Of a DNA stretch of 64,000 nt, positions 18,946 to 53,797 are shown one piece after another (the first letter of the stretch is position 1; the number at the start of each line of letters is the position of its first letter). Source of the stretch: Chondrosia reniformis (Eukaryota; Porifera; Demospongiae; Chondrillida; Chondrillidae). A program made the translations under genes and the position numbers. The stretch lies in contig OX359200.1 of the NCBI GenBank assembly GCA_947172415.1, positions 374,501 to 438,500 of the forward strand. The letters are read 5' to 3'. The notes beneath the pieces were generated by a model. It was given only the letters and a program-made list of their open reading frames with translations. It made no database searches and was not told the DNA's origin.

Positions 18946-21900
18946 ATGGCCGCTCAAGGTAAGAGCAGTTGTACATGCGTTAATTTCATTATAGTTGCAA
19001 CTGTTATGAGAGATCCTTAGTGACGAGTGATTAAAAGCGATCATGAGAATGTGTTTTACATACAATATGTTCTGCGATCATGTTGAACATGCATATATCG
19101 GTAGTATATACTAAGTAATAATCAATCTGCCTGCTCCACCTACTGATTCCTATCGACCTACCTTGCAGGTCGGTTACGTGTGGCGCTGTTGGCAATACTG
19201 CTGCTTCTACAGCACGCAACCGGTGACCTTACGTCTTCGGATTCAACAGAAACAGCTCCTTCTGGTTCATTGGAGAAGGACTCGAAAGAAGCGAAACAAA
19301 ATCCCGCCCCAATGGCCTTTGCCTCAGTGGTCAACGAAATGGGAAAAGGGTAAGTACTGACAAATGTGTCTATACGTGAATTAGAGGCTGTAGGCTGTAA
19401 TACAGTGTGTCAGTGTGAGTGTGGTGTGATGGTGTAAGAAACGTCATTAATGAGTGTATTCATTGATAAACTGTACGTGTTAATACAATGGACATCATTT
19501 AGACTGGGGAGACACTTATCCATTGGCTACTATACAGTGGTCTCAGATGTCACTTCTACAGACGCTCATCCTAAGAGAATGTCTTAAGAAACCGATTTTA
19601 TATCCATGACTTTCTAGATTGCATTTTATGACAAATGTGATTGATATTTAATTTAATTACGATGCACAAAATTTTTCACACAAGATATGCAAATTACACA
19701 CAACCATGCACCCAAAGTAACTTGGTTGATAATTTGTGGATAAGTGGAGCACCCGTGTTGTAATACAAGACGATCCATGTAGTTACATTAATCTGTCTTG
19801 TACTCCTTTGAAATTGATTAGTTAAGTTTATGTATTTAACTAAATTTACTGCTATACGAAGGACTCTTTAATGACTAATTGAGTTAGTTAAGGATCATTC
19901 ATATTACAATACAACATTAACACAATTAGCAGAACTATTTTATCATCAATACATAATAATAATTTAACTTCCGGGAGAGATTATAGAGAAAAACAGTTAA
20001 TGAGTTACAGATGCTCATATCACCAATACAACCAATTTAGCTCTAGATCATTTTAAGAGGTTAATGTCATAGTAACCTAATATCCATGGTAACCACATTT
20101 CCGTGGTAACCAGTCTAATTAGATGACTTGAAAGGAAATACTGTTTGTTGTTCCAGTCTGTCGGACATGTCAAACTACAGTGTGTACTACATGAAGGAGG
20201 CAGTGAAATACGATAACTACTACTGTTTTGTAATGCCGACTGTATAGACTTGAGATAGCGGCAGATTTAGGGCATGCTTTGGGCGCTGAATCACTCCCTC
20301 GAAGTTTGAGTTTGTATTAGCCTTATCTCAAACCTCTTTGATAAAACACTAATCAACTCACCTCACACCCTTTCTCTGTCACACTCCTATAATCCCCTCC
20401 CCCTGTCAACCTACTACTTTGTATTCTCTTTATTCAGGTTTCTGAACTTTTGGCAAAAGTACAATTTTCTAGTTAATGTGAGTCAAGTACACTTATTCAG
20501 TAGTCATAACTTGTATGGCTTTAAGTGACTTTGAAGTGCAAGCAATTCCTTCTGGAAAGCTATTGCATCACTTTTGATAGCTACAATATAACCGGTCGGC
20601 TTGGAGCTGGCTGAACTTGGCCTTATTAGAGAGGTGGCCACATTATATATACGGCCATTTTTTACCAGATATTAAGAGCCAACTGTAATTAAAAGGTGAC
20701 AGTTTTACTGTGGCTCTCCTATTGGGTTCCATTGCTACATTGTGTTGTGTTGCGTTGCGTTCAGTTTTACGTGCCGTGGTGTGAACACAGTCAAGCACTG
20801 TATCCTCTCCTCTCTGAACTGGCCCTCCGGATGACAAACAGCTCTGTGAATGTGATACAGGTGGACGTGTCGCAATATGGAGGTCAGCTGATTAATTACG
20901 TATGTCAGTCATGTAGGATACCTCAAGTGACTACATCTACTTGTATAGATCTGAGTGATTGGGGCAATTCATTCCTGAAGGCAACACTAACCAAGTTTTA
21001 AGATGGCTATACGGCTGTCAAAATGTTTGGTCATGCATTTTAAAACTTTGGTTGGCATCACAATTAACAAGAACCCCCATCCCCATCTACTGTTTAGTTC
21101 AAACTTTATCTAGAATCCTTATTATCCTGTACCAGAGTTGCTCAATATATATGAATTTAGGTTACTTCGGCTAGCTATACTTACAGTAGGCCCTTTGTGA
21201 AGATTTAGTTTTCTCTCTCTGTTTATAAAGATTTTGTAAAAATAAAGTAGATTAGTAGATTAACTTTCATATATGTTGCTATGGAAACTTAATAGATTTC
21301 TAGTGACACAGTGTAACACAGTCCTTTGGACCTACAGCTACGCATGGTCACACATGGCCATGGATGAATAGCTGACTTAATGGACAATTAAAGTGATAAT
21401 TAACCCGCAGCTACTATCACATATTTATGCATTATGAGGCCAGCTGCTCCAGTGATTGAGCAGATGAAGTAGAATTGAAAAAAAAAAAAAAAGTGGGGAG
21501 CCAACATACTGGTACACAGGCCTGTATCTATAAGTCTTCTCTATTGATAGTTTAGTAATTATTTGCTATAACAGCCAATTCTGCTTGCAAATTCTTGGCA
21601 TACCGTATGACAAAGTTCACCAATCCATGCCAAGGGTCAATATAGTTTTACAACTGGTTTATGTAGCTTTCAATACAAACCATTTAAACTTTCCACTTTT
21701 AAATGAAAGGAATGTTCTCCTGATCCACATGGTAAAGATATAGTCTTTCAAGGTTCGACCCGTCACATGTACATGGGATATGTGGGGTGATGACCCCAAG
21801 ACATGCTTAACTATATCCCCTTTGTGTACAAAGCTGCTAGAATTACTCCTCTGGACTGAAGAATCTAAATAATAAATATATTTACTGTGTCCAATGGGGG

Positions 21901-24900: not shown

Positions 24901-27900
24901 AGGTGTTGAAAGTAGGGGAGGTGTCACTTTTCTTTCTTTTTCTTTTTTTCTTTACTGCCTGGAGGTGAGCCCTGGCCATCCCATTGCTTTGTAATCCGTA
25001 CTTCCAGCACACCCTATAATATGTACTGTCTTCCGCCTGTGAATCACAATCAGAGACCAAGGCACTCTTGGCTATGTAGTGGTTGTCATGGTGATGTAAT
25101 TTGGTCGTCATGGTGATAACACGGGTGTATCTGTTCACTTTAGCCACTTGCACCAGAGCAGTTCTCACAAAAGACTCTCTCCCAGTTTCTGGTCAGTGTT
25201 TCTAGGGGAAATGTCAAAGTGAGTTAAAACATTGTGAATCATGGTCAAATGATCACCATGGTAACTGAAGCTTGTATCAAAGTGTTCTCTTAATGCTCCA
25301 CCTCTAGGCCAGTGGAGGGCTCTCAGTAATAGACAGAGTCTTGCATGTAAGTGCATGATAAGTTTCCATGACAACTCTGTTACCATGGCCGTTTTACTGA
25401 TTGGACCATTTAAAAGAGTTGTTTCACTCAATCCTTTTAAAAGCATGGTACATTTAAAGGTACACACACATATATAAGCAATTTACCAGAGTGATGGTTC
25501 ATTTAGAAGTTCCCCCAGGGGGGTGGGGTGGGGTTGTATGGAGGTGGGATACACAATTGATGGAGTGCAATGAATATGGAGGTTGCATAAGCTTACTATT
25601 CAAGTGGAGTGAAGTGTGTTCAAAGTCTCTCCTCATTTCTCTGAGATGGCCTGGAAAGATAATTATGTGATGGGCTCTACATTTGGCTGATAGGAAATAA
25701 TGAGTGTAACAAACTAAGAATATCTGATATAGTAGTGCAACGAAGTGTAGACATTAGAGTGGCAAGATGTATGTAGCAATAAGACTTGCCATGTGAGCAT
25801 AGAGATTTCTTCTAATAACATCTTTGAGATGAACCACCTCAAAGATGTTATATAAAGACATAGATGTAAGCACCACTTTTATTTTAAAATAATTGTGGTT
25901 ATCCTTATCTATCTGCAGTTTATTAGAGTGGTCTATGGAGGCTTCCATGTGAGTTAACACATAATAAAATTATCATATGTATGTTCTTCTTGAACTTAAC
26001 AGTGAACATGGACACACACATTATTAGTTACCACCTTCCAAAAGAGAGACAAATATGGAAGTCCTGTTGCTAGGGTTTGCCCACCCTTGGTGACCTTTAA
26101 TGATAATCATTGGATTTTTAATGATATTCATGATATTTTAATGATATTCATTTTGCCTTTTAATTTTCCTTGAGACCCCTTGAACCCTTGTAATAATTGT
26201 CATGCCTGCAAGTAGACAATAAGTATCCCTTCATTCTCAGCTACAAACCCCTTCAGCTACAAACCCCTTCAGCTACAAACCCCTTCACCTACTAACCCCT
26301 TCACCTACAAACCCCTTCAGCTACAAACCCCTTCACCTACTAACCCCTTCACCTACAAACCCCTTCACCTACAAACCCCTTCACCTACAAACCCCTTCAC
26401 CTACAAACCCCTTCACCTACAAACCCCTTCACCTACAAACCCCTTCAGCTACAAACCCCTTCAGCTACAAGCTCATTCTCAGCTACAAACCCCTTCAGCT
26501 ACAAGCTCATTCTCAGCTACAAACCCCTTCAGCTACAAGCTCATTCTCAGCTACAAACCCCTTCAGCTACAAGCTCATTCTCAGCTACAAACCCCTTCGG
26601 CTACAAGCTCATTCTCAGCTACAAACCCCTTCAGCTACAAGCAAAAATCCTTAATTTTAGAAGTTTCTAATAATTTGAACTAGTTGTTATTAATGTTGCT
26701 GGTGGGAGTGGCTTAGTGCTGGTGGGAGTGGCTTACTGTTGAAAGGTTTGTATTTTAGTAGGGTAATCAAAAACCACTTAGGAGGGAGACCATGTTGGCC
26801 CCACAGTGACTGTTCTCATAGTTAAGTTGTAACTAAGACATAAACTAGGATAAACCAGTTTAAGTTTCCTAAACTTGGGGACTTTTTCACATATGCTTTG
26901 TCAATGGTTTCCTTGCTTGTGGTTAAACCCAAGGAAACATCATCGTACACTGTATTGACCTAAATCCTCCAATTCTCACAATTAACTGTGTTGAACTCCA
27001 TGTACACAGTTTGTTCTCTGTTGCTATGGCAACCAACTGGTTACTCCTGGAGAGAAGAAGAGAAGTAGAAGGAGAAAATACTTGTCTCCTCATCCAAAAC
27101 TCTCGTTAGGTTTAGTTCCCTATTAGGCCTTTACTCTAAAGTAGATGTAATGTATAAGAAAAATGGTGTGTTAGATTATTCATGGTACAAAAATATTTAT
27201 TCTGTCTGTTATGTGTGTGTCTATGTATGAAAAATCTAATATACCATTTTCCTACATGCTGTGCCTATTCTGTAAAAAGAGCCTATAGGGGAACTAAACC
27301 TGAAGAGAGCTTTGGATGAAGATACAGGAGTCTTTTCTTTCTTCTTTTCCTTTCTTTCATCTTCTTCTCCACTGGGTATGTATGTATGCATGCAAAAATA
27401 TGAAATTAGAGAAGAGCTGAGTTGTAGTTTCTAATCCCAAATGTATACAGTACAGTGACCTATTGAGAAACCTTTCTTTCTTTGAAGAGATCCTCTCTGA
27501 TCAATTAAGAGGGCTTCCCTCTAGACAGATTCCTTGGAAAGTTTCAATGGACTTGCTTCACAAAGCTTCACCTCCCAATAAGCACATTCACTAGTTCTTC
27601 CTCATTAAACCAACTGAATAGTGCATCTGAACTCGCCATTTCACTGGATTGGCTCCAAACACTGGTTACATTCTTATCACCTTCTACTCTGGCCTCTTCT
27701 GAATTTGTGAAGCAAAATAAGTTTATAATGTCATCAAAGAAGTGACATATAGTATAGCATAGTTCTTAATAGAAGTAGAAAGGGGAGGGGTCATGGGAGG
27801 GGCCTTTGAGGTTCTTAGATTTCCCATTTCAAAAGATGTTTCTTCCTATTCTTCGCCAAATTTCCCATCGCTTCCACTTTTCATGTCTCCTTCATCTCAG

Positions 27901-30307: not shown

Positions 30308-33300
30308 ATGGCAAGTAGGAGAGTTCTTCAGCCGAAAAATAGTAATCTAAGTACTAAATCGTGGTCGAAAAGCTGCGAAGATTTAGATAAGATTTATGAA
30401 GATGGACCTGCGTGTGCCATTTGTGGAGATGTTGCTTTGAAGTCTCATTTCGGAGTGTTGAGCTGTGAAGCTTGTGGGAGCTTCTTTAGACGATACGCTA
30501 GGACGGAGGATCCTTTCGTGTGTTTTTCAGGAGGAGACTGCATAGTTACGAAGCGTACCCGGAACAAGTGCAAGCACTGTCGACTTGAGAAGTGTATCAG
30601 CAAAGGAATGATGAAGGAAGGTGAGACCATAGTTCTGGAACATATATTTAATCGACTGATTTTAGACAATTATACAGCTGGGGTAATTTTGAAAGAAATT
30701 ATTCGTGAAAGATTTCAAGTAACTGTCATGCATGTATTTTATATATAATTAGTTGATGATTACTGAACTACAGCAACAGTAATTTAAGTGTATATATTAT
30801 AATGAAGAACTGGTCGAGAATAATAATATCTTACATGCATAGTAATATAGATAGATAGATAGATAGATTTAAAAGCTCTAAAATGTAGCAACGCATAAAA
30901 ATCTAATTGTCAGTAATATTATGTAGTCTCATCCAAGATACCAGTTAGATGAGCTTTGCGCAATTAAATGTTAGCCATGTATAATAATATAATGCTGTAT
31001 GTAAGCTTAAATTTATTAATAATTTATCATCTGTGTTTAAAATTCTGGCAACATAAAACATCCTTTCCAATATCTTTGTTATGCTATCTATAGATATTAC
31101 TGAACTAAAGGAGATAACAATACAGGTAGATAGATACATTTGGACTTTGACCTTTTGGGTGCATAGGTCCAGCTATTATATTATTAATCGCCCACCATTT
31201 TTGAGTGTGATGTAATCCCAGGTCAGCCCACAGGACCTCACAGGTTCATGTACTCTACCTTTGAAGTTTTAGTGAATTATATGATACCTGAAAGTTGATC
31301 CTCTCTGGCCACGCCCCTATTCCCTTGGAAACCACGCCCCCTCACCCTGGACTGATTCTTGTTGCCTCTAAATAGGTGGTCCCTATAGAGTACTGAAGTA
31401 CCCCCTCCATTCCACAAGCTGCACTCTATGTGTTATAATTGGTTAGTACTAGTTGAATTTTACAAGTTTAATTGAATCAGATCCATAATATGCAAGTATA
31501 AAGTACAGTATGGTATTATAGCACATTAATATCAGTACCAGATGGACAGTGAAAGTATTTACACTATAATGAACTACTCAGTCAATGCATATTATTATGT
31601 ATATTTGGAATTCCTTCTAATTTATCTGATAGCTGTAAACAGCACCTCAAACACAACCTTAGAGGTTCTAATGACACCCTTTGACCTCTGGATGTGTATA
31701 ATCATAGTGATAATCCAACCACAAAAACAGGAAAGATTCTATTTGCCACCTTCCTTTAATGGAGGTAGAAAGTTGTTAACTGAGTCTTAGGTTTATAAAC
31801 AGGTCTTTGTGGTAAGGCATACCAATCAACCTTGACCTTACTCTCTCCTCTCCCTGATAGCCGTGAAGGACACATCAAGACCAGCTGTCAGGGAATTTCA
31901 GAGACAAGCCCCACTACCAGCCCAGCCGATGATGGTTGCTCCTATCCGCTACATACTCACAGGCCCCACTGCAACTCCTGTTCCTGTAATGCCTTATAAT
32001 GGACAGATGCATCAATTTGGAGTGTATCATGATGGCATGATCCCTAATACACAGTATGTTCCTGTGAATGCTCCCCAGTATGTTCCTCAGGTAGCCCCTA
32101 CTGAACATGGCCGCCTGCCACAAGTCCTAACAAATGGAAATATACCACTTTCCAACCCCCATATTGCTAGAAATGGTTCTTCTCCCACCGAACTAGACCA
32201 ACAGCAGAGGAGACTTGAAGAAGAAAGGTCTCCAACTCCTCCCTCAGTGTCAGGTCCCAACAGTCCATCTGGTACTGGCTCAACACCATACATGTATCCT
32301 GCTCCGCTGTCTCCTACTAGTTCTGCAGCCTCTGATGGAAAGAAACCATCTATTGCACAATCAACAGAGCCTGTGACCTCTTTGGGTGCCTCTGCCTTTC
32401 CCTTAAATTCTTCATCTAACCATGAAAACAAGCCTCCAAGAGGAGATAACCCATCAACAGTGTCTGGTCCTGATGTTCCTCTGCCACTCTTAGATTTAGA
32501 CTATCTCATCCAGAAACATGATGAGGCTTTGCAGTTTTCTACACCATCAGTTCCATCAGGTGATGGTGTATCATTAGATGTCATTACCAAAGGAGGTACT
32601 AAGTCTATTCTTGCTTTTGTTACTTGGCTAAAGAATGTGAAAGGCTTCACCATTCTACCTCGCCTGGTTAGGATGACTATCTTTAAGCATTGCTGGATGG
32701 ATCAGTGCCTACTCAATGTTATTTATAGAACATTTATACAGGGCTCAAAGGAAGATAGGATTGTGACTAGTGCTGGATTTGAAGTCAATGCGGGAGACGT
32801 TAAGCATTCACTATTGGCCTACACTTTTGGACGGATTGCTAAAGAAATTATCCCAATATATCGAGATCTTGAATTGGACTACAAGGAGTTGATTTGTTTA
32901 CGTCTCTTGCTCTTGTTTGATCCTGGTAAGTCACTACAGTGACAGTAGCTTTAAAACATACTAGCTAACCACTATATAGGAGAATGTTTGATCTTTAAAA
33001 ATATATTCCTGGTAGTTATTTACTTTCTTTTCTCCTATATAGCTCCATGATTATTGTACATGGACAACTTAGGCCTTTTATAATAGTTATACAATGCAAT
33101 ATCCTGTCAATAACTCAGTAAATGCCTAAAAGCTTGTGAAAAGCCTAGGGGTGGAGTGTATAACTTACTTGTATCTATACGGCCATCCCTACTTAGAGAA
33201 TACTGCCGTACTCTCTGATAGGCAAACTTCATTTTATGTTTATTCTGGTAGAAATCCCTAATTTGGACCTCGGTGCTAAGGACACAGTACGAAACACTCA

Positions 33301-33496
33301 AGAACAAGTTCTACTAGTCCTTGAAGATCACTGCAATTCCAAAATGCCAACTAACATGCAGAGATTTAGTAAACTGCTTCTTTCACTATCCCTTTCTAAA
33401 GGAGTTACGCAAGAGGCAATCCAGGAGTTGGAAATCAGAAAGGCCTTACAGTCGGCAAAAATTGATAATGATATGTTCGCTAACCTTGAAATTTGA
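30308..33496 (+). CDS. NR-B: nuclear receptor of the palindromic cluster
   Basis: Three coding exons: 30308-30620, 31861-32925, 33252-33496 (540 aa). The ATG at 30308 is chosen because it opens a peptide comparable with the starts of NR-C to NR-E; an in-frame upstream extension lacks similarity. The DNA-binding domain (about residues 36-104) has normal zinc spacing, but its P-box is CEACGS: the Lys that contacts DNA bases in other receptors is Gly. Exon 2 carries a Pro/Ser/Gln-rich hinge and then ligand-binding helices (TWLKNVKGFTILPRLV, CWMDQCLLNVIYRTF, ELDYKELICLRLLLLFDP). Exon 3 (245 nt) carries the last helices (VLLVLEDHCNSKMP, QRFSKLLLSLSLSKG) and a C-terminal helix with QELEIRKAL. Exon 2 and its flanks are almost identical to the inverted copy in NR-E, while exon 1 is only about 70% identical at protein level. 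The exact ligand and DNA target are unknown. Confidence 0.9.
30848..30868. repeat. (GATA)n microsatellite
   Basis: Five tandem ATAG/GATA units in NR-B intron 1. Confidence 0.85.
31141..31153 (-). promoter_or_regulatory. HNF4-type DR1 site in NR-B intron 1
   Basis: The minus strand reads AGGTCA-A-AGTCCA, which contains CAAAGTCCA, the half of the DR1 that favours HNF4-type receptors. Its position in the first intron of a receptor gene would suit auto- or cross-regulation, but this is inference. Confidence 0.4.
31736..32985 (+). repeat. left arm of 1.25-kb inverted duplication (NR-B exon 2 and flanks)
   Basis: From ATTCTATTTGCCACC in intron 1 through exon 2 and about 60 bp of intron 2 (ending CTATATAGGAGAA), this arm is nearly identical in reverse complement to 41048-42296. 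Similarity stops abruptly on both sides. The arm length is 1250 bp against 1249 bp. Confidence 0.9.
32986..33228. mobile_element. probable ~240-bp insertion in NR-B intron 2
   Basis: NR-E intron 2 is only 85 bp and runs straight from TATAGGAGAA to TTTCATTTTTATGTTTATTC. In NR-B the same flanks are separated by about 240 bp of unrelated sequence. Near its left end stands TTCTCCTATATAG (33030-33042), the reverse complement of the flank CTATATAGGAGAA. The type of element is unknown; a deletion in NR-E is the alternative. Confidence 0.5.
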
Positions 33497-33659
33497 CTTT
33501 AAACGTGTACAGTATTTTAGAATCTGAATATTTGAACAAGCATTATCAGCTCTTTTTATTCCTCAAGTTTGATTAATTAATTAGTATTATTGCAGAATAT
33601 TTATGATATTTATGTAAAGAGATATCCATCTGAATCCTAAAAGAAGTGTTTCTAGCTAG

Positions 33660-33722
33660 ACTAAAAGATGAACCATATCAAAGATACGTTTGGTACAGTT
33701 AGAAGAAATCCCTATCATCTAT
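33660..33722. repeat. MITE-family terminal fragment
   Basis: Contains AAAAGATGAACCATATCAAAG and then GTACAGTTAGAAGAAATCCC, matching the right end of the element at 60360-60545. Confidence 0.55.
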
Positions 33723-33890
33723 ATGAAGTTAAAGAGTTATATGTCTATAAATAATATCGATGAGGAAAATCATATACTCTAGACTGTTGGTTAATTTGTT
33801 GGCAAATGTCTAAAATACTAGAAAATACTAGGGAAAAGTGCAGATGCCATTGCCGACCGCTTCGAATGTGCGAATAGGAGAGTAGGTGGT

Positions 33891-33900
33891 ATATATAAAG
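33891..33900 (+). promoter_or_regulatory. TATA box of NR-C
   Basis: ATATATAAAG lies 80 bp upstream of the NR-C ATG in a 480-bp gap after the NR-B stop. Confidence 0.5.
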
Positions 33901-33979
33901 TTAGGTGTCAAGTTCGTATTGCTTTGAAAGTCCAAGTATATAGCTACGTAGTAACCCCGCGCTTATACCACCGTCTAAG

Positions 33980-36900
33980 ATGGATCAATCGAAGAAGAGT
34001 GAATGTAGTTCGCCGGATAACACCTCGGACTATTTCTCCGACGTTAGCGGAGGTCGCTTCAAGACTCCTTCTTGTCAGGTCTGTAATGATCCTGCCACGG
34101 GAAAGCATTTCGGAGCCTTGACATGCGAAGCTTGCAAGAGCTTCTTCAGGCGCAGTGTCCGTCTCAAGACGCTGTACGCTTGCAGAGCTAATAGAACCTG
34201 TTTTATCACAAAGCGAACACGTAATAGATGTCAATACTGTCGTCTTCAAAAGTGTTTTCTTGTTGGAATGAGGAAAGAAGGTGAGTATGCGTGTCTATAG
34301 TTGAAAGTGCTACTAAAATCTGAGTCTGTTATAGTCTTCTAAGAGAGAGAATGAACATCATTATACAATCAAGCATAATAGGTTATAGAAAAGTACAAAA
34401 AAGCAGGTCTCAATTTAGATATTGAATTTGCCAATGAATAAAATGTCAATATTTGTGAAATGTAATTGAAAATGTAATGTAAAGAACTTGTATAAATTTG
34501 TTTCCAATATAGCTAGCGAGAACTTAATGAACTTAAAAGATTAAAGTTGTAAAGTAATGGTAGGATAATTATAATATGTAATCCTTCTGTATGCCTCAAC
34601 TGTATAGTTGCTTAGTTAGATAGCCTAAAGTTTTGGAGCAAGGTATTGCTTCTCAAGAAATTTTGAGTTTAATAGAATTGTGATTTTCTATACACACACT
34701 CCTGCTCCGCTCCTCTCTCTCTCCCTATATACTTAATGGCTTGCAACCTGTAAAAAGAAATATGGTATTTAAATTCATCAGTTCAAACTGATATAATTAC
34801 TTGAGGTATAAAGATATTGAGGCCCACTCAGAAAGGTAAAGCATGGACCTTAGAAGTGAAATATTACATAACACATTCATTCATAACATATAGGCATTCT
34901 TTGACACACTATATTCTTGAGTGCTATATGTAAGTGACCACAAGTATGGTGTTTCCTGAGTATGATGATCTGATCATGACCCTTTGAGGTTTGACATATA
35001 TGCACCTTTACAAGGCGATAGTGTGTACACTTAATAGTTAACAGTGTCCACCCATGTTTCCATGGAAACCACCCCACCTAAACAATGTCCTGGGTAGGTG
35101 TGACCAGTTCAGGGTTCCCTTGGAACTGATCAATTATTAATGTTAATTGGAAACAGGAGCAGTTTCTATTGTCTTGTATAATGCCACTAATTTTAGATAG
35201 GATAAGTTCATCAGGTTTACTTATCACATAAAGCAACAATGAATAGCAAACATCCCTCATGAGAAAGCAAGGCAACAAGAGCTTGTATACTATATATAGT
35301 AACCTCATGACCTCATACATTATAAGGAAGACCTATGTATACAGTCGAGTTTTTTGGGATATTTTGATAGAACAGGAATATATTGAAGGTCTTGATAGCA
35401 AAACAGAAAGTTTAAGGTCAATAATTTACTTTTATTTTCTCATGTTTATTGACTGTATAAGAGAAATGAAATTTAAAGTTTTATTAAAGTTAATTGAAGT
35501 GTTTATGCCATTTGGTCCAAAAGAAACTTGTTTTTTTGTTTTCATTTTGAGCGTATACACAATCGTTATTGAAACGATAAGGGTTAATTGTTGTGTACAT
35601 TTTGTGTGACTGTGGCTCATACTATTCACAATCATCATTATGCAACAACAGAAAATAATATAGTTCCAACTTAATTTGGTATTGTTTGCTGAGAGCAGTT
35701 GTATTGCCAAGCACTGTCTATTCATCAGCTAGGGGCTTTGGATATTCTGAGGTTACCATGGCTACAGTTTGGATAGACATCAATCATAAGATGGGCAAGG
35801 ATTGGGGGTAGATTGAGGTTAGAATTGATGGGCAACAATTAGAGTTGAGGTTAGAATTGATGGGCAACAATTAGAGTTGAGGTTAGAATTGACAGTTGTG
35901 GGTGGGCAACAATTAGAGTTGGAACTTTGTTTAAACATTTCCTGCTAAAGCTATAAGTTTGCATTCCAGAGTTGTAAAACCATTGAACCCAATCAATCAA
36001 CTGTCATTCACACTGTTAGCTGATTATAGAAATAGAGTTTTAAGTCTGTACCCAACCCATTATCGCTGGTAGGCTCCTACAAGTAGGTATGCCATCCCTT
36101 TGTTGAAGTGAGTAGGCACCTGTAATTTACTAATCTGTACTCTCTACTCCTACACAATGCAATAACACCTATGATCACTCATGTATCAACTCTTGTGAAT
36201 GCTTAAGAAATCGTCCTGCCCATATTAGTGGCTCATATTAAATTGCCTGTTAAGATACAAAGTTTAATAGGGTACATTGTGTGCTGAACTTATGTAGAAT
36301 TAATGTATAATATCGTATTACTGTGGTTAGTGGAATCAACATTTGAGACATTAGTTGCATTAATTCATTAGCTTCCTTTTAAGGATTAGATCAATGTTCT
36401 GTATGCTATTAATATTGTGACAGCCATCTTATATGACCTTGTATGAGTGGTCAATCTTCAGGAAGTGGGGAGCCAATTCTATGAATCACCAATATTTTTT
36501 TACATTTTATTTATAGCTGTGAAGGAAGAAGGAAAGTCTTCAAGAGGTTCCCCAAAATCTGCAGCCATTCAAATAGGGTGGTCTCCACCAACACTTCCCA
36601 ATCTCTGTCAAACACCGCCTACCCAACCTGTTACCTTTTTAGTAACTCAATCAGTTAATTATCACTTCCTCCCCAGCAACTTGCAAGAACCAACTGTATT
36701 CATGGATAAAGGGCCCAATCCATCTTACAACTTCCCCACACAGGTAGACACACACGCTCACGGACCTAACTTGGTTGGAGAACAGCATTTTCCACTCTCT
36801 GTCAGTCTCACAGGTGGAAGTAGTGATCATAGCTCTAGTAGCGGGGATTCACACCTAAGTCAGACGGCCTCCCATGTCTCCAGCAACCTTAGTGAGCTAG

Positions 36901-37964
36901 TGACTACCAGTGGAGTGAGAGATCCTCCACCAGTTTCTGACTCCCCAGTGAAAAGCCTCAAAGTTGAACTGGAATCTTTAGCACCTGATGAGCCTGCTTA
37001 TAAAACTGGTGTCCCTGTTAGCGGTCCAGAGATTGATATTCCTGATTTCAACTTGGACCAGTTGATTGCCTCACACCAAGAGACACAGAAGCCTCCCTCT
37101 GAAGCACCTCCACAGACCAATGGAGTTGATATCTCGATGCTAATCAAAGGAGCTCAGAAGACCTTAGGAGATTTTGTGAACTGGATTAAATGTATAGTTC
37201 CTTTCGCTCAACTTCCTCCGGACGTTCGGGTGAAGTGTGTAAAGGGGTGCTGGATAGAGCAAATGATTTTGTCGCTCGTGTACCGCAGTCTGCTTTTGAA
37301 TAGCAGCAAGGGACTTGTTCTGTCAAGTGGTACAGAATTCAGTCAACAGGAGGTGAAACATTCTTTAGTTGCTTATAGCATTGGACGTATTATGGGAGAA
37401 TTGATGGGTACATTTGCAAAGTTGCAGTTGGACCACAAGGAATTTGTTTGTCTAAGATTGCTATTTCTCTTTAGTGCTGGTAAGTGTGATAAGTGTGATA
37501 GAGAATTTTGGATTACAGTCAGTAGTGTCACGCGTGTACTTCTAGAATCAAAATTTACACCATAAATTGTTAATCTATGCACAATATTGCGCAATGTACT
37601 GAATAAACTAACTAACCCTTAGACAAGTGATTATAAAATTTAGATACATTTTGTGGTAATGAAATAGAATGACTTGTTGTTTTGTCAGATGAACAGTGTT
37701 TGCTCTCTTTGACCCATAGATACACTTGAGGTTGATTTACCAGTGAAGGAACACATTAAATCAATACAATCTAAGGTTCTAGTCACACTGGAGGACTACT
37801 GTATGGCCAAATCATCCAACAATCCTCAGCGCTACAGCAAAGTACTTCTCTCCATGGCATCCCTCAGAAGCATCACTCAAGAGCTAACCCAAGAGTTGGA
37901 GATCAAGAAGGCCATGTCTAAAGAGCACTTTGATGCTTCCTTCTTAAATTCAATAGGAATTTAA
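33980..37964 (+). CDS. NR-C: nuclear receptor of the palindromic cluster
   Basis: Three coding exons: 33980-34280, 36517-37479, 37720-37964 (502 aa). The DNA-binding domain (residues about 32-100) has canonical spacing and P-box CEACKS followed by FFRRS; the second finger reads CRANRTC. Exon 2 has a Ser/Pro-rich hinge and the ligand-binding signature [20 protein letters not shown] with [15 protein letters not shown] and [17 protein letters not shown]. The last exon (245 nt) ends in the helix [16 protein letters not shown], a candidate AF-2 region. The ligand-binding domain is closest to NR-D, its tail-to-tail neighbour, while its DNA-binding domain is the most distinct of the four. A TATA box stands 80 bp upstream of the ATG. 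Intron 1 is over 2.2 kb and holds a three-copy tandem repeat. Confidence 0.9.
35811..35922. repeat. ~40-bp tandem repeat
   Basis: Three copies of a unit with GAGGTTAGAATTGATGGGCA and CAACAATTAGAGTT, in NR-C intron 1. Confidence 0.85.
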
Positions 37965-38301
37965 GACTTGTTCACTTTGCCATCATTTAAGTGAAAAGAG
38001 TGTTTTCATTTTTCTCTGAAGTATCCTGAATATATGTATGCATGTATATATCCAAACTACATACATGATTCTTATGTATTATTTTAACTTCCTTTATATT
38101 TGGTTCTTAAAATCTAACTACACTATAGCTACTGTGATAAATATTGAATTCAAAACAATGTATCAAACTTTTATATAAGTACACGTGAATAAATTCCATG
38201 TAATCAAAAAGGTGTAAGTATATGAGTTTGGTTGTTCATGTAAAAAGGTGTAATTGTGTCCATAAAGAACTAGGGAGATATAGTATGCATAAAGTATTCC
38301 A

Positions 38302-40539
38302 TCAAATATCAAATGTTGTAAATATGTCTCCGGCCAAATCCATCGACTGCATGGCTCTCTTAACTTCCAATTCCTGGGTCAATTCAACTGATATGCTTCG
38401 CAATGAGGAGAGGGATAGTAGGATCTTGCTATACCTCTGAAAGTTACCAGGAAATTTACTCATACTATAGTCTTCAAGTCTCAGCATAACTTGCTCCTGA
38501 ATGCCCGACAGGATCTCCTTGGCACTAGGGTCTAGGTCAGCAATATCTATACAAAGTTGGCAAATTAAATGTAGTAAATTAACAAATATACTTACGGAGA
38601 TTTTAACAGCTTGAGGATTGCAGAACTCAAGCAGCTAATCACACATTTAAAGTTATGATCTGTTATAAAGGTAACACTTAAATACTACAAACTAGTGTGC
38701 ACGTGCCCGCACTTTCTAACCTGAACCGAAAAGAAGTAGAAGACGAATAAAGATCAGTTCTTTGTGGTCCAGCTGGAGCTCCTTAAAATTCACTGTCAGT
38801 TCCCCCATTATTCTCTTAGCCCCATAGGAAATCAGCGAGTGGGTGATATCTGAAGATTTCACTTCTTCTCCAGTCTGAAGAACTATTTGATCACTTGCAT
38901 AAGTGTATTTTAAAGTGCGGAATACTGCATTTAGAATTACCTGCTCCACCCAGCAGTGTGTAAGACAAAGTTTGCGAACTTTTAAAGGAAGAATTGTGAA
39001 TGCAGGTATAGTCTTAACCCATCTTACAAAGTGCCCAAGAGATTTTTTGCCATTCTCTATGATTTGCATCATGTCTATCCCTTTAGCAGGAGGAGTTGAG
39101 GTGGCACTAAGATGCTCAACTATCAGCTCATTATGTGACTTAACTAACTCATCAATATCAATTCCCTTAATAGGAACCTCTGGACCAGTAGGAGGAGGAG
39201 GAGGGGGAGAAGAAGCAGCCGCATTTTCAGGTTTCTGGGTTTCACTCGTTTTGACCTGTCCGTTTACAGGGGGCAGACGGCTAAAATGGCTTTCTCCATT
39301 GTGTTTGCTGGAGTAGGTGGGTGAGTATAGTTCATCAGAGCTGATACCCGATTGATAGGATACATCTCCTGAAAAGACTCCTGATGATATTCCAGAAGAG
39401 GATTTAGACGGTAAAGAGAAATCATCTTCCTCCTTATAGACTGACTTTGATGTTGTTATTGCTACAAAAAAATAGGAAAAACAGAGTTTAAGGAAGAGGC
39501 TTTAACAGATTGCTATGGCGACCAGTTCAAATTAGGAGAGGCTATAAAATGTAAGAAGATAGCATTCAATTAACTATTAACAATAAACTCTAAAGGGCTG
39601 GTGCCAAGATTTTTCTTTTCATGTAATGGCTGTCCTTGAATAGCTACTTTAACACATTCTTTTCTCAAGTTAGTTTCCTTGGGAATTAACAAACATAAGT
39701 TCTGGATATCAAATTATGTAAATTGTGATGTGATTTCTACAAAATACCGTTATGAAAATATTTTAGTTTCGTTTCCAAGACATCTCAAATCAAACAACCT
39801 AAACACTACAAGTAGGCCTGGTCAGTAGAGACAGGTGTGGTACTATAGATTAGCTATGTTAGGAAAAATAGAATTATAATGAGGTAAGATAAGGGAGTTA
39901 TAAAAACATTCCATTGAGACATTCATGTGTTTTCAAAATCTTCGACCTTGCTACACTCCATTAGTCAGGGAATGCTTTGGCACTGCGAACTATTACCAGA
40001 GAATAAGCACTAGAATGTGGGTAGCACCGAGGTAATGATGCTGCAATTAAAAGTTCATGTCTGCAAGATTAAGCCAAGTGTGCGTGCTATATTCACAGCT
40101 GGGACGCACTGTCGTACGAAAAAACAGTACAAACGTTACGGGGGACTTCTTAAAAGCTACACATGGTATCCACTAAAGGTGTATGTATTTGTGTGTGTGC
40201 GTGTTTGTGAAAGCCTTTTAAGTTTTAACCCAAATATATGGCTCTTATCGAAGTCACCTATTGACCGGTCAACTCACCTTCCTTCATCATTCCTTTCGCG
40301 GTACACTTCTGAAGTCGACAATATTTGCATTTGTTTCTTGTGTTAACTGTTATTTTACAGTTTCCTCCAGCGAAACAGATAAAGTGATCATCAGATATTG
40401 CGTATCGACCGAAAAAGCTCTTACAAGCTTCACAACTCAATACTCCATAATGGTTCCCAGAAGCAATATCTCCGCATACGACACAACTGACGTTGTTCTC
40501 TAACGATTGGCCCGTATCCTCTGCCGTTTTCGAAGCCAT
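38302..40539 (-). CDS. NR-D: nuclear receptor with FFGR recognition helix
   Basis: Minus-strand exons: 40539-40278, 39461-38721, 38546-38302 (415 aa, the shortest of the four because of a short hinge). The DNA-binding domain (residues 19-87) has normal cysteine spacing and P-box CEACKS, but the invariant FFRR is FFGR, losing an Arg that contacts the DNA backbone in other receptors. The hinge contains a run of six prolines. Ligand-binding motifs are LGHFVRWVKTIPAFTILPLK, CWVEQVILNAVFRTL and LQLDHKELIFIRLLLLF. The 245-nt last exon ends in LTQELEVKRAM. The DNA-binding domain resembles NR-B/NR-E (for example [13 protein letters not shown] and ICFAGGNC), whereas the ligand-binding domain and last exon resemble NR-C. 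The stop lies 340 bp from the NR-C stop, tail to tail. Confidence 0.9.
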
Positions 40540-40622
40540 TCGAATTTTTACTGTAAGAACAGAGAGATACCTTCTTCGTTCGTGGAAGACCACCGCGTAA
40601 GGTGAAAATCTAATGTGACAAA

Positions 40623-40650
40623 TGACGTCACGACTTTTGTCAAATATATA
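40623..40650 (-). promoter_or_regulatory. CRE and TATA elements upstream of NR-D
   Basis: A palindromic CRE TGACGTCA (40623-40630) and, on the minus strand, a TATATATTT stretch (about 40642-40650) lie 85-110 bp upstream of the NR-D ATG. Confidence 0.4.
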
Positions 40651-40776
40651 GCTCAGTGTGTTATGAACTATAAAGGCCACTACAAATGTTGTGAGGTGAC
40701 AAGAATTTAAGTACACTGAAGTAAATGTTTCCGGGTATGTGGAAGTAGTGAAATGTGAGAAAAGAAAAGAAATTGA

Positions 40777-42972
40777 TCATATGTCCATTGATGAAAACAT
40801 GTCATTATCAAGTTTGACTGAGCTCAACGCTTTCTTGACTTCAATCTCCTGGCTCACCTCTTGCGAAACTCCTTTAGAAAGGGATAGTGAAAGAAGCAAC
40901 TTATTGAATCTCTGCATGTTAGAAGGCATTTTGGAATTGCAGTGATCTTCCAGGGTCAGAAGAACTTGTTCTTGAGTATTTCGTACTGTGTCCTTAGCGC
41001 CGGGGTCCAAACCATGGATTTCTACAAGAATAAACATAAAAATGAAATTCTCCTATATAGTGGTTAGCTAGTATGTTTTAAAGCTACTGTCACTGTAGTG
41101 ACTTACCAGGATCAAACAAGAGTAAGAGACGCAAACAAATCAGCTCCTTGTAGTCCAATTCAAGATCTCGATATATTGGAATAATTTCTTTAGCAATCCG
41201 TCCAAAAGTGTAGGCCATTAGTGAATGCTTAACATCTCCCGCATTGACTTCAAATCCAGCACTAGTCACAATCCTATCTTCCTTAGAGCCCTGTATAAAT
41301 GTTCTATAAACAACATTAAGTAGACATTGGTCCATCCAGCAGCACTTTACGATAGCTAGTCGAGCTGGTCGAGGGAGACCGGTAAAAGATTTTACATTCT
41401 TTAGCCAAGTGATGAAATCCCCAATAGACTTAGTACCTCCTTTGGCAATGACATTTAGAGATACACCATCACCTGATGGAACTGATGGTGTAGAAAACTG
41501 CAAAGCCTCATCATGTTTCTGGATGAGATAATCCAAATCAAAGAGTGGCAGAGGAACATCAGGACCAGACACTGTTGATGGGTTATCTCCTCTTGGAGGC
41601 TTGTTTTCATGGTTAGATGAAGAATTTAAGGGAAAGGCAGAGGCACCCAAAGAGGTCACAGGCTCTGTTGATTGTGCAATAGATGGTTTCTTTCCATCAG
41701 AGGCTGCAGAACTAGTAGGAGACAGCGGAGCAGGATACATGTATGGTGTTGAGCCAGTACCGGATGGACTGTTGGGACCTGACACTGAGGGAGGAGTTGG
41801 AGACCTTTCTTCTTCAAGTCTCCTCTGCTGTTGGTCTAGTTCGGTGGAAGAAGAACCATTTCTAGCAATATGGGGGTTGGAAGGTGGTACATTTCCATTT
41901 GTTAGGACTTGTGGCAGGCAGCCATGTTCAGTAGGGGCTACCTGAGGAACATACTGGGGAGCATTCACAGGAACATACTGTGTATTAGGGATCATGCCAT
42001 CATGATACACTCCAAATTGATGCATCTGTCCATTATAAGGCATTACAGGAACAGGAGTTGCAGTGGGGCCTGTGAGTATGTAGCGGATAGGAGCAACCAT
42101 CATCGGCTGGGCTGGTAGTGGGGCTTGTCTCTGAAATTCCCTGACAGCTGGTCTTGATGTGTCCTTCACGGCTATCAGGGAGAGGAGAGAGTAAGGTCAA
42201 GGTTGATTGGTATGCCTTACCACAAAGACCTGTTTATAAACCGAAGACTCAGTTAACAATTTTCTACCTCCATTAAAGGAAGGTGGCAAATAGAATATAC
42301 AGAAGGCAAGGATGCTAGCCTAGTTTTATTACACTGCTTTTTGGGGTAAATTACAGTAACAGGTTCTCAAATTATCAATGCGACATTTTATCACATTGCA
42401 TACGCAGACACAGATAGAGATAGAGGCTTTACGTAAATCCGTACAGTCGCCAAAAATGTGTTTGTCTAGAAGTGAGAGTTGACAACGCCTACGTATATCG
42501 GCTACGAAGTTCGCACACAGGGGGGGCTAATCTGTTATTAATAGTAGAGGAGCATTCAAAACGCATGTTTGAAATTAAATGAAATAAATACTATCGTGTC
42601 GTCGACCCTGAATCTTCGCAGAGACCGAAAAACTACAACAAAAGCGTATTAAAGGATAAGTTAAAACGACTATTGAGTTCGACTATTACGAAATACATGA
42701 ACTACAGCACAAATACCATCCTCACCTTCTTTCATCATCCCTTGAGTGATGCACTTTTGAAGACGACAATACTTGCACCTGTTTCTTGTACTTTTTGTAA
42801 TGGCACAGCGTTTCTCAGCAAAGCACACGAAAGGATCGTCAGATCTTGCGTATCGTCTGAAAAAACTTTTACACGCTTCACAACTCAGAACGCCGAAATG
42901 GTTGCCGGTAGCGGAATCTCCGCAGATGCGGCATGCGGGTCTTTCGTCTGGGGCATCAAGTCCGTTATCCAT
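40777..42972 (-). CDS. NR-E: nuclear receptor, inverted partner of NR-B
   Basis: Minus-strand exons: 42972-42726, 42171-41107, 41021-40777 (518 aa). The DNA-binding domain (residues 14-82) has P-box CEACKS followed by FFRRY, so unlike NR-B it keeps the usual Lys. The hinge exon is 1065 nt, exactly as in NR-B, and nearly identical to it in sequence, except around ligand-binding helix 3 (SIGDFITWLKNVKSFTGLP against SILAFVTWLKNVKGFTILP). The last exon is 245 nt and about 80% identical in protein. Intron 2 is only 85 bp. A TATA box lies about 120 bp upstream of the ATG. The product should be a DNA-binding transcription factor; ligand unknown. Confidence 0.9.
41048..42296 (-). repeat. right arm of 1.25-kb inverted duplication (NR-E exon 2 and flanks)
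   Basis: Reverse complement of 31736-32985 with few differences. The arms are separated by about 8.1 kb containing NR-C and NR-D. Confidence 0.9.
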
Positions 42973-43088
42973 ACTAGCAAAGATTATAATTCAATCGGAA
43001 CGAAGTAACAAAATGACTCGAGGAAAAACGAACTTGAATCTTTCTAACCCGACAGCATTTGTATACAGCAAGGCCCACATATACAACC

Positions 43089-48512: not shown

Positions 48513-50476
48513 ATGTCTATGGATTCTTCTGAAACCGATTACAGGAGAGGACAGTCGCACTCTAACGCAGTTCAAGTTATACTACTAGGGGTGTGTTCCA
48601 GTGTATGTGAATGAGATCCCTCTGTTTCACGCTCAATTAGTTATATGTCGACTGTCGGTTGTAGGATTCGCTAGTAGGGAAGACTAGCATTATACGCTAT
48701 GTGAACGAAGGAAAAACAACCGAAGATTGCTTGAGAACAGCGACTCAAGTTCATCATATGTGAGTGCTTTATTCACTGACCCAGTGAATTAGTTTCAACT
48801 TCGTAAACAAGTTCAACCTAGTAACTGTGAACCCGGAACATCTAACGCATTGTCACTTCTTTAATTAGAACAAACAACTACTTCGTATGTATGTTTCCGT
48901 AGTTTAGCAACCCTTCCTGCGGGAATTACTCAAAAGTCTTAAGAGAAAATTTGTCTACATCATTATTAATCTATTTTGGCACCCAACAGAATTGCCCATG
49001 CTTACATGAAGGCTGAACTGCATTTAAATGCTATTTTTGCTTCTTGATAGTCAAGATTGTTCAAAAGTTGAATTGACAACAGAGAATGGGCAGAGAGTGA
49101 AACTGGACTTGTGGGACACCTGTGGACACGAGAAGGTAATAGTTGGCTACTAACTTGTATAGTTTTTAAACAAGTTGAATATTTGATATAGCAATTCCAT
49201 TCCCCTAGCTTGTAACCATAGATAAAACATGCTATACATGTTATAAGGATTTTTATGATTTTTGTTCAATCTTCTTCTCTATCATTTTCAGTACCATACC
49301 ATTTCCAGTCAGATGCTAAGAAACATGGACATTGTACTATTGGTATACGACATTACTAATAAAGTGAGTTTCACATAATTGAATAATATTGGTTATGCCA
49401 ACGCTGTAATTGTACATTTTCAAATCTATATATGTCGCCTCTGGCACATTTAATAAGAGCACGTGTGATCTAAAACATGTACTATTTTCCTGTAGATCTG
49501 GCTGGTGAGGTTAAATATATGCAAATTAGACTAAAGTACTGTTTTCCTATACTTGCAACTTTGGGAAAAACCTATAGAGCATAATATTTGTGACTTGTGT
49601 TACAAATGGTTACTTGTGTTTGCCTTTGTGTCCCCCTTTAAGGCCTCCTTTGAACATATTCAAGAGGAATGGACGAGCTTGCATGGTAAAAAGATGCTTT
49701 CATGGATTATGCAATTGGAGCAGCAGGAAAACACCATGAGAAAACGTATATCCAGAACCTTGGTCGGTAATAAGTCAGATCTGGGCAGAGATAGAGAGGT
49801 ACAATTCATTGTAGCTGCACACTTAAGACCAAGTCAACTCTAAAATAAAAATTACAGTAATATGATACTATTGGCTAATAGAATCAGCCAAGTCCAAGTA
49901 TTGATTATAAATTAATAGACATAGATCTTAGACACTATTCCTGTTAGATTGAGGGTGAAGGGTATATCTGTTTCACACTAGTAATTACAGAAAGCTTAAT
50001 GGATTTCTTAGAGTTTTATGCAGTCATTTGCAAACAAACACTTCATGATCATGTGCTTTGACAGTAAGGGAAGCTTTTAACTTCTACCCTTATTTGTATT
50101 AAAACATGCAGCATGAATAATTAATACACTGCAGTCTCAATTAGAGTAAATTTGTTCAAATATTCACAGGTGCTAGTAAAACAGGGGGAGGAACTTGCAT
50201 CCAATTGGAATGCATTGTTTTATGAAACTAGTGCTAAGACAGGAAATGGAATTAATGAAATATTTAAAAATATTGGTAAGAATAATTACTAATTACTTCT
50301 CCCATTTTCCATTGAGGTTACAATTTTCCATTGTGTTTATAGCTGAGAAGGTTGCATTGCAAAACTTTAAAAGATGGTCTGAGAAGTCAAATAGTATTTC
50401 ACCAATTGAGGAAAGCAGGGCGTTTAATATATCAGATATACCAGTCTCACACAAATACAAACATAAATGTTGCTAA
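48513..50476 (+). CDS. atypical Rab-like small GTPase
   Basis: Membrane-anchored small GTPase, probably in vesicle traffic. Seven exons in phase: 48513-48590, 48665-48759, 49051-49135, 49292-49363, 49643-49798, 50170-50275, 50343-50476 (241 aa). The P-loop is GDSLVGKTS, built across the first splice junction. G3 is WDTCGHEKY, with His where Rab and Ras proteins have the catalytic Gln. G4 is NKSD and G5 is ETSAK. The C-terminus is CC, a Rab-type geranylgeranylation signal. Switch I is unusual (around CLRTATQVHHM), and about 12 extra residues precede G4 (GKKMLSWIMQLEQQENTMRK). The subfamily is not assignable by eye; the P-loop and CC end are Rab-like. Confidence 0.85.
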
Positions 50477-52080: not shown

Positions 52081-53797
52081 ATGAACAGATTGGTACGGAA
52101 TCTTTCAGGAGTTCTCTATGAGACAGCAAATGTAATGGCCAACACACAAACTTCCGCATCTTCTGTAGCGCAGAATGTAGTCAGCGAAGGGTACGTGATA
52201 TGTGCGCAATAGTTTTTGCATGCTTTATGGTGTATGGACGTACTTTTATAGGTGGCTCTCTCGACTCACAAGTTGGATTCCGTCATGGAGACCTACATCC
52301 AGACAGGCGTTGCAAGAAGCCGAGCACAGAGTAATGAGGAGTGAGTTGTTTAGTTCAATTTGAGAGAGATACGTGATATACTCCTTTACTGTCCCTTTAG
52401 ATGTTAGATCGTCCTACCGCAGTGAGATGGTGGAGATTCAACCGGGCATTCACATTAACACTGTCATTGTTCCTTCAGCTTCAGCCAAAGAGGTTGACCC
52501 TAGAGAGAATGGTTTGGCCACACCCACACCTACCTCTCAAAGGTTACCACTGGTGATGGTGCATGGGTTTGGAGGTGGATTGGGTTTGTTTGCAAAGAAC
52601 TTTGATTCTCTTTCTGAAAAGCGAAAATTATATGCTTTTGATCTGTTGGGGTTTGGACGGAGCTCCCGAATAAGGTTTTCCAGTGATGCTGATCTGGCAG
52701 AACAGCAGTTTGTTGATGCTATTGAGAGCTGGAGAAAGAAAATGGGTTTGGAAAAATTTATTCTTGTGGGTCATAGCATGGGTGGATATCTGGCCTGTAG
52801 CTATGCCATTAAGCATCCTCAGAATGTGAGACATTTGGTCCTAGCTGACCCATGGGGATTTGTTGCTCAGACACCAGAAGAAGCAGAGAGCCTGCGAAAC
52901 CTTCCTTTGTACGCAAGGGGCCTGATTGGAGTCTTTTCACGCATCAACCCAATCTCAGTTGTGAGGGCTTCTGGACCAATAGGTAAGTATACATTAATAA
53001 TCCAAGTGATAATCAAACCACAAGTAATCTTTCTCAAACATCACAAAGAGGGAAAACATGAAAGAAAAAATGCTGGGAATTGAACCCAGGACAGCTGGTT
53101 ATGACCACCAGTGTGTTTTTATTATTTTTGTGTAAGTTGATGAGATCTTAGTGTTGCCTTGTGTATTTGTTAGGCCCAAAGATATTTGGCAGAACAAGAG
53201 CTGATCTCGATAGAAAGTTTTCTGATTTCCTGTCCGAAGATGACTCCATTACTGACTATCTCTATCACTGCAATGCTCAGACTCCTTCGTAAGTCTGTTT
53301 TGTAGGACTTTCCTTATATGGCAACTACATGTTTGCCTTATATGGTAACTAAATATCTTTCCTTATATGGCAAGTACATGTTTGCCTTATATGGTAGCTA
53401 AACATCCTTTCCTTATATGGCAAGTACATGTTTGCCTTATATGGTAACTAAATATCTTTTCTTATGTGGTTTCAGAGGAGAAACAGCTTTCTACAACATG
53501 TGTTCATACCTAGTCTACCCAAAGAGACCGATGATGGACAGAATGGATAAACTAGATGAGGGTGTGCCATTATCTTTTGTGTACGGAAAGAGGACTTGGA
53601 TGAATGCTACAGGCGGAGAGAGAGCCAAGTTCCTCCGCCCTGACTCCTATGTAACCTGTCAATTTATTCCTGCAGCTGGACACCACGTGTATGCAGACAA
53701 TACGGAAAAGTTTAATGAAGCTGTAAAGGAAATATTTAATAAAGTAGACGATAACAAAGACATTAAAGTTCCTGTCAAGTTGAATGTTTTATTCTAA
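52081..53797 (+). CDS. ABHD4: alpha/beta-hydrolase of the ABHD4/ABHD5 family
   Basis: Lysophospholipase / N-acyl-phospholipid hydrolase family. Exons: 52081-52190, 52252-52340, 52401-52982, 53174-53288, 53476-53797 (405 aa). Features in order: a Trp-rich N-terminal segment (SRLTSWIPSWRPTSR), the oxyanion motif MVHGFGGGLG, the strand ending FDLLGFGRSSR, the nucleophile elbow GHSMGG, DPWGF, a lid region, a late acidic segment and the terminal GHHVYADN, combining the catalytic His with the HxxxxD motif known in ABHD4/5. The Ser in GHSMGG points to an active enzyme like ABHD4, not to the co-activator ABHD5, whose serine is replaced in mammals. Intron 3 holds a tRNA-like fragment and intron 4 an array of CArG boxes. 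Confidence 0.9.
53060..53105 (-). ncRNA. tRNA-derived fragment
   Basis: On the minus strand the sequence reads CCTGGGTTCAATTCCCAGCA preceded by an anticodon-arm-like CTGGTGGTCATAACCAG. It has a good T-arm with B-box (GGTTCAATTCC), but no D-arm or 5' half was found. It is probably a tRNA pseudogene or a tRNA-derived repeat fragment rather than a functional tRNA. Confidence 0.4.
53300..53462. repeat. ~50-bp tandem repeat with six CArG boxes
   Basis: Three copies of a unit containing two CCTTATATGG motifs each, at 53312, 53336, 53361, 53385, 53411 and 53435. CCTTATATGG is a perfect CArG box (CC(A/T)6GG), the SRF binding site. The repeat abuts the last acceptor of ABHD4. Confidence 0.9.

Follow-up and report, generated by a model that had tools for sequence, protein, structure and literature searches.

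The contig C12 (OX359200.1) of the demosponge Chondrosia reniformis holds a group of nuclear receptor (NR) genes, most of which lie in the window analysed here, a stretch of 64,000 nucleotides (C12:374501-438500); positions below refer to this window unless a contig is named. The genome searched comprises 117,379,552 bases in 15 contigs, the published assembly being described as 117.37 Mb in 14 chromosomes plus the mitochondrion (PMC12181767; this and the other papers are cited from excerpts of their text). A genome-wide search for the zinc-finger family zf-C4 (PF00105) revealed 10 matches (10 of 10 candidates scored), comprising seven on C12 spanning 371,826-417,436, one on C4 and halves on C3 and C14. 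The ligand-binding domain (LBD) family PF00104 gave 11 matches (12 of 12 candidates scored), every one inside the same eight receptor genes; for large families such counts are lower bounds. Both families, which mark the NR superfamily, exceed their curated cut-offs in all eight genes, termed NR-A to NR-H. Seven of these fall within 49.2 kb on C12, on both strands and in the map order G-, F-, A+, B+, C+, D-, E-, with NR-F (C12 374463-372701, minus strand) directly upstream of the window and NR-G (C12 372071-368292, minus strand) beside it. The eighth, NR-H, is located at C4 8569217-8571579. An initial sequence-only reading of the window had proposed a lineage-specific expansion including NR-A; a local expansion of this kind is supported, and the cluster is larger than noted, with NR-F, NR-G and, on C4, NR-H added. 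Large NR clusters occur in nematodes, and clustering alone is therefore not new among animals. We hold it to be highly probable that this demosponge carries a seven-gene NR cluster with the structure and history described below.

Gene models were predicted from splice signals. The models of NR-B to NR-H comprise three exons with open frames, and both introns are of phase 1 and interrupt the protein at the same two places. In NR-B, NR-C, NR-D and NR-E, exon 1 encodes the DNA-binding domain (DBD), exon 2 the hinge and the LBD to approximately helix 9, and exon 3 approximately helices 10-12 and the stop. NR-B (30308-33496, plus strand, 540 predicted residues) consists of exons 30308-30620 (ATG, N-terminus and DBD with P-box CEACGSFF; zf-C4 80.9 bits at C12:404910-405116), 31861-32925 and 33252-33496, and NR-C (33980-37964, plus strand, 502 residues) of exons 33980-34280 (P-box CEACKSFF; zf-C4 102.6 bits), 36517-37479 and 37720-37964. 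On the minus strand, NR-D (40539-38302, 415 residues) consists of exons 40278-40539 (zf-C4 86.7 bits), 38721-39461 and 38302-38546, and NR-E (42972-40777, 518 residues) of exons 42726-42972 (P-box CEACKSFF; zf-C4 93.4 bits), 41107-42171 and 40777-41021. The second exons and exon 3 of NR-C are placed by the LBD match together with the gene model, and the third exons of NR-B, NR-D and NR-E by the gene model. As first read, these four complete predicted genes extend from the ATG at 30308 to the ATG at 42972, and their order and strands are mirrored about ~38.13 kb, the midpoint between the stops of NR-C (37964) and NR-D (38302). NR-A, on the plus strand, is predicted to have five exons: exon 1 (13828-14140; zf-C4 match and alignment) encodes an SpNR2/HNF4-like DBD with a five-residue insert, and exons 2-5 (15728-16650, 17753-18062, 18265-18435 and 18556-18830; LBD match and gene model) encode the hinge and LBD, the end of exon 2 being one of two possible donor sites.

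Two receptors are described in Amphimedon and two receptor types in sponges (PMC2950128, PMC3038971, PMC8092661), with aqNR1 nearest to RXR and aqNR2 nearest to HNF4 (PMC8942334). By the marks described for SpNR1 (AqNR1 of Amphimedon queenslandica and the "RXR" of Suberites domuncula; PMC8092661), NR-B to NR-H appear to be SpNR1-type genes, kinship to AqNR1 being read from these marks. The RxxxE pi-turn motif of helix 7 is shared by NR-B, C, D, E, G and H, reads KxxxE in NR-F and is absent in NR-A, and the class I tryptophan at the junction of helices 4 and 5 is present in seven of seven (NR-B to NR-H) and replaced by Val in NR-A. The arginine described as the fatty-acid contact in AqNR1 (Arg492) and HNF4 (PMC2950128) would match, by alignment, the R316 column of RXR, where Arg is retained in NR-B, C, D, E, F and H and not in NR-A and NR-G. 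The best solved-structure match of NR-E and NR-F is RXR-alpha. Differences from the described SpNR1 include the number of such genes (seven, six of them clustered), the absence of the glutamate of activation function 2 (AF-2) in NR-B to NR-E, the P-box of NR-B, in which Gly replaces the Lys found in NR-C and NR-E, and the helix-10 marker, which, by the column chosen, would be Lys rather than Arg in five of the seven. This marker, the class I arginine R105, called R321 in PMC8092661, was read in column RXR 426, where HNF4A has Gln as described in that paper. NR-F and NR-G both retain the AF-2 glutamate. The hinge exon of NR-G is very long (1,842 bp), and both the acid-anchoring arginine and the lysine of helix 3 are missing from this gene. 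NR-H contains a two-residue DBD insert, and inserts of 2-5 residues are mentioned for SpNR2 (PMC8092661), but RxxxE and the tryptophan are present and NR-H groups with NR-B to NR-E. In contrast, NR-A alone shares all four marks described for SpNR2 (PMC8092661): its DBD has a five-residue insert, located in the first zinc finger, RxxxE is absent, the W109 column contains Val, and the R321 column, described as Lys or Tyr in SpNR2, contains Tyr. Its best solved-structure match is HNF4-alpha. These marks suggest that NR-A, which is linked to SpNR1-type genes, is SpNR2/HNF4-like. A lineage-specific SpNR1 expansion is likewise described in calcareous sponges, with four paralogues, P1-P4 (PMC8092661); these belong to another sponge class, and the excerpted text describes neither clustering nor gene conversion for them. 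A search for sponge receptors by DBD profile gave 28 pattern matches in genome contigs and 15 in viral contigs, none of which was confirmed.

DNA self-comparison of the window revealed an inverted repeat between NR-B and NR-E (31736-32985 against 42296-41047; 95.6% identical over 1250 bp without gaps) and a second inverted match between the same genes (33218-33477 against 41056-40796; 84.8%), and lists no inverted repeat between NR-C and NR-D. Apart from conserved zinc-finger stretches common to NR-B, NR-D and NR-E, mirrored DNA is limited to B/E. The homogenised repeat (31736-32985, plus strand, in NR-B; 41047-42296, minus strand, in NR-E) comprises exon 2 flanked by 125 bp of the first intron and 60 bp of the second. 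It is ~98% identical outside an island at approximately helices 3-4 (32572-32721, plus strand, in NR-B; 41311-41460, minus strand, in NR-E, mirrored from the B coordinates over the ungapped alignment), which holds 38 of the 53 exon-2 differences in 150 nt. Synonymous and nonsynonymous divergence (dS and dN) vary abruptly along the pair. Up to ~32,600, exon 2 has a dS of 0.026 and a dN of 0.013; the island (32,600-32,715) has values of 1.36 and 0.20, and the rest of exon 2, 3' of it, a dS of 0.131. Exon 3 has a dS of 0.592 (0.40 in its first and 0.84 in its second half), and synonymous sites of the DBD are saturated. Exon 1 was compared by local alignment, since global alignment misplaced it. 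In the intron margins 2 of 125 bases differ before exon 2 and 0 of 60 at the start of intron 2, and beyond the 125-bp margin sensitive local alignment found no match between the first introns. The longest identical run extends over 260 nt in 1523 coding bases (109 or less in 5000 shuffles), and no 150-base stretch of exon 2 held more than 27 differences in 20000 codon permutations, as opposed to the 38 of the island, the densest such stretch. Synonymous sites contrast strongly between the 5' part of exon 2 and exon 3 (p 1.5e-12), as they do between the island and the remainder of exon 2 (p 3.5e-13); no difference was seen between island and DBD (p 0.31), and no clear one between island and exon 3 (p 0.098). 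The simplest account of this patchy divergence would be gene conversion between old inverted copies, occurring in at least two tracts whose ages may differ, as suggested by the contrast between the 5' and 3' parts of exon 2 (p 0.012). We accordingly ascribe the strong mirror between NR-B and NR-E to a tract of gene conversion and not to a surviving piece of a duplicated block. Comparable cases are described for the mammalian pairs BMP8A/B, DDX19A/B and TUBG1/2, old duplicates homogenised next to divergent segments, introns included (PMC2720389); here, in contrast, the genes are nuclear receptors, lie as inverted neighbours and have a spared helix 3-4 island inside one exon.

Near-identity of exon 2, with the differences clustered in functional regions, is also what would be left by a recent inverted duplication of a single gene (NR-B to NR-E or the opposite way), after which the DBD and helices 3-4 diverged quickly by adaptation. 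However, adaptation does not bring synonymous sites or introns to saturation, and the synonymous divergence of the island, of exon 3 and of the DBD, together with first introns that do not match beyond the tract, leads us to reject this explanation, which is refuted unless the mutation rate varies tens-fold between adjoining exons and has a very small probability. The dN/dS of the island is ~0.15 and thus gives no sign of positive selection; that selection caused the sparing of the island is a guess. The possibility that the island stems from a different paralogue, that of NR-B resembling NR-D and that of NR-E resembling NR-C through shared words such as FTILP and GDF, is not supported, since B and E are still closest there (nucleotide identity 70% for B-E, 56% for B-D and 52% for C-E). 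A near-identical exon in inverted orientation could equally be expected if one B/E arm were mis-joined or represented a haplotypic copy. Yet the arms, each of 1.25 kb, lie 8 kb apart and differ at 55 sites, with exon 1, introns and flanks also different, and the assembly is described as built from HiFi reads at ~70x, with a quality value (QV) of 69.8 for the primary haplotype, haplotypic duplications removed and 10.31 Gb in 0.80 million reads, i.e. ~13 kb per read (PMC12181767). An assembly artefact behind the B/E arms is therefore unlikely, and we give it hardly any credence. The extra length of intron 2 in NR-B relative to NR-E is due in part to a multicopy repeat (33067-33220), absent from NR-E, with at least 40 other matches in the genome (40 of 848 candidates scored).

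Protein identities between DBDs are 72% for B-E, 72% for D-E, 65% for B-D, 55% for C-D and 73% for C-F, and those between LBDs are 83% for B-E, 46% for C-D and 44% for both B-D and D-E. NR-B and NR-E, first considered mutual best matches, are so in the LBD; in the DBD, B-E and D-E tie. Trees calculated with IQ-TREE included the human receptors RXR-alpha and HNF4-alpha, with RAR-gamma added for the DBD; of the groups tested, only B/E and C/D had been specified before any tree was inspected. The DBD tree displays (B,D,E) with support of 100/99, and the LBD tree B/E with 100/100 and (D,(B,E)) with 67/83. Joined domains give (D,(B,E)) with 99/98, and the DBD with unconverted LBD columns gives B/E with 95/97, upholding the sister relationship first proposed for this pair, and (B,D,E) with 100/98; in the latter data set B/D is borderline (p 0.052) and D/E is rejected (p 0.009). 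NR-H groups with NR-B to NR-E in joined domains ((B,C,D,E,H) 99/99), and either NR-C or NR-H may be nearer to (B,D,E), the support there being 63/44. The tree that best fits these alignments is (D,(B,E)) with NR-C outside. The LBD of NR-A groups with HNF4A (90/88), and the DBD with unconverted columns pairs RXRA with HNF4A without NR-A (81/81); the very long branch of NR-A may affect its place.

The mirrored order and strands had been explained by inverted duplication of a two-gene unit, which would make (B,E) and (C,D) sister pairs; on this view the DBD exon of NR-D would have to have been overwritten later by E-like sequence. Some of the evidence agrees with this. The words LQLDHKE, RIMGEL and ELTQELE are found in NR-C and NR-D as reported, the C/D identity in the LBD is second only to that of B/E among NR-B to NR-E, conversion is known to occur in the cluster, and the LBD alone leaves C/D unrejected (p 0.24, or 0.29 without NR-A and NR-G). 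RIMGEL holds the RxxxE motif described as ancestral (PMC8092661). C/D sisters are, however, rejected in three of the four data sets: the DBD (approximately unbiased test, p-AU 0.0019), the joined domains (p 0.0185) and the DBD with unconverted columns (p 0.0055). These verdicts persist when the long rows NR-A and NR-G are dropped (C/D p 0.29 in the LBD and 0.0019 in the DBD; B/E p 0.18 in the DBD). Moreover, synonymous sites between the DBDs of NR-D and NR-E are nearly saturated (dS 1.7), such that no recent overwrite is visible, and the inverted C/D repeat is missing from the self-comparison. Inverted duplication of a two-gene unit is thus not supported and we consider it improbable. The order of the tree instead points to a series of single-gene copies, with B/E as the inverted sister pair. 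The mirrored arrangement first noticed therefore stands, in a larger cluster, and the duplication model is replaced by one of single-gene copies with gene conversion, in which receptor functions are proposed from sequence.

Residues were mapped on RXR-alpha by alignment, with the numbering anchored on W282. The island extends from helix 3 to where helix 5 begins, and within it NR-B and NR-E differ at 12 RXR positions (269, 277, 278, 280, 288, 291, 295, 296, 298, 299, 301 and 303), of which 277 and 301 are presumably groove positions. One further residue differs before the RXR row begins, and over RXR 304-380 only 314, at the island edge, and 342 differ. Among the groove positions listed by PMC8258697 (280, 284, 298, 450 and 453), NR-B and NR-E differ at 280, 298 and 453; conversion would have spared part of this coregulator groove. 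The charge-clamp lysine K284 is retained in NR-A to NR-F. The column of RXR E453, the AF-2 glutamate, contains Ala, Asn, Thr and Ser in NR-B, C, D and E, respectively, Asp in NR-H, Met in NR-A and Glu in NR-F and NR-G. The NR superfamily includes members without a working AF-2, and the missing glutamate thus limits function, not membership. We suggest, with somewhat less than even confidence, that NR-B to NR-E, which carry the acid-anchoring arginine and the RXR-like pi-turn motif, are ligand-sensing transcription factors and that, lacking the AF-2 glutamate, they would activate weakly or non-classically, repress, or serve as dimer partners. For NR-B and NR-E we infer a common hinge and a largely common pocket, whereas the DNA sites read, with DBDs 72% identical and Gly in the P-box of NR-B, and the coregulator surfaces presented would differ.

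The cluster would have been built by repeated local duplication of an SpNR1-type receptor beside the SpNR2/HNF4-like NR-A. NR-B, NR-D and NR-E form one branch, with NR-C and, on another chromosome, NR-H outside it, and NR-B and NR-E are old sister copies, inverted and ~8 kb apart. Subsequently, ectopic conversion would have overwritten exon 2, that is, the hinge and most of the LBD, probably more than once, leaving helices 3-4 and exon 1 untouched and exon 3 at most anciently converted. A more ambitious proposal, which we regard as possible but rather unlikely, is a modular concerted evolution in which conversion prevents the hinge and the greater part of the pocket from diverging between NR-B and NR-E and selection keeps their helices 3-4, helix 12 and DBD distinct; in addition, the mixture of SpNR1 and SpNR2/HNF4 types may preserve the local duplication behind the first two NR lineages of animals. 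If true, modular concerted evolution would let one chemical signal act through two receptors on different DNA targets and coregulators.

Several observations weigh against parts of this interpretation. The DBD alone joins NR-B to NR-D (90/87), with B/E not rejected (p-AU 0.076), and, as described above, the LBD alone does not reject C/D sisters. The helix-10 marker at RXR 426 is Arg only in NR-C and NR-D and Lys in NR-B, E, F, G and H (Tyr in NR-A). The changes between NR-B and NR-E at 280 (V/I) and 298 (M/L) are conservative, and the spared island could be a product of chance, lying between two tracts. NR-B, NR-D and NR-E carry an acidic residue next to the C-terminus, and a shifted helix 12 could restore activity. 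Splicing and expression of the receptor genes are predicted only.

Two sponge receptors serve as the root of the NR tree and as a basis for reconstructing the ancestral receptor of animals (PMC2950128, PMC8092661). Eight receptors in one demosponge, seven of them clustered and both types represented, would add many sequences near this root, and the cluster displays a local expansion without the classical AF-2 glutamate. The linkage of SpNR1 and SpNR2 types offers a testable trace of the first NR duplication, and the B/E pair would clearly illustrate, in a natural setting, how gene conversion can affect one portion of a transcription factor. In the literature searched, the coverage of which leaves out most subscription journals, none of the listed titles concerned clustering or conversion among sponge NR genes, no paper on gene conversion in tandem nuclear receptors was found, and among the matches listed for Chondrosia and nuclear receptors no title was on the subject.

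Neighbouring frames were scanned for 20 of the 62 listed frames of at least 95 residues. A thioredoxin-like frame sits between NR-A and NR-B (20693-20998), and the seven genes are thus clustered, perhaps not uninterrupted. Other features of the window include a weak Ras match under the curated cut-off (49535-49840), an alpha/beta hydrolase frame (52364-53083), a CS domain frame (59373-60221) and tandem repeats at 26237-26642 (~32 bp period, open in three plus-strand frames), 5100-5403 (~27 bp) and 11462-11731 (~20 bp). The partial zf-C4 matches on C3 and C14, considered as extra genes, were rejected, both holding a transposon-borne 200-bp piece of NR-E. This piece corresponds to 42863-43062, comprising upstream sequence, the ATG and the first zinc finger, and is 98-99% identical in the two copies that carry it, located at C3:1664006-1665638 (~1,633 bp, with perfect terminal inverted repeats of 106 bp) and C14:2845100-2849544. 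Four other long matches to the transposon (C2, C3, C5 and C7) are without the NR piece. No repeat flanks the C3 copy. That on C14 is flanked by an 8-bp repeat and interrupted, within the captured stretch, by a further element showing an 8-bp duplication. The arrangement looks like Pack-TYPE-like gene capture.

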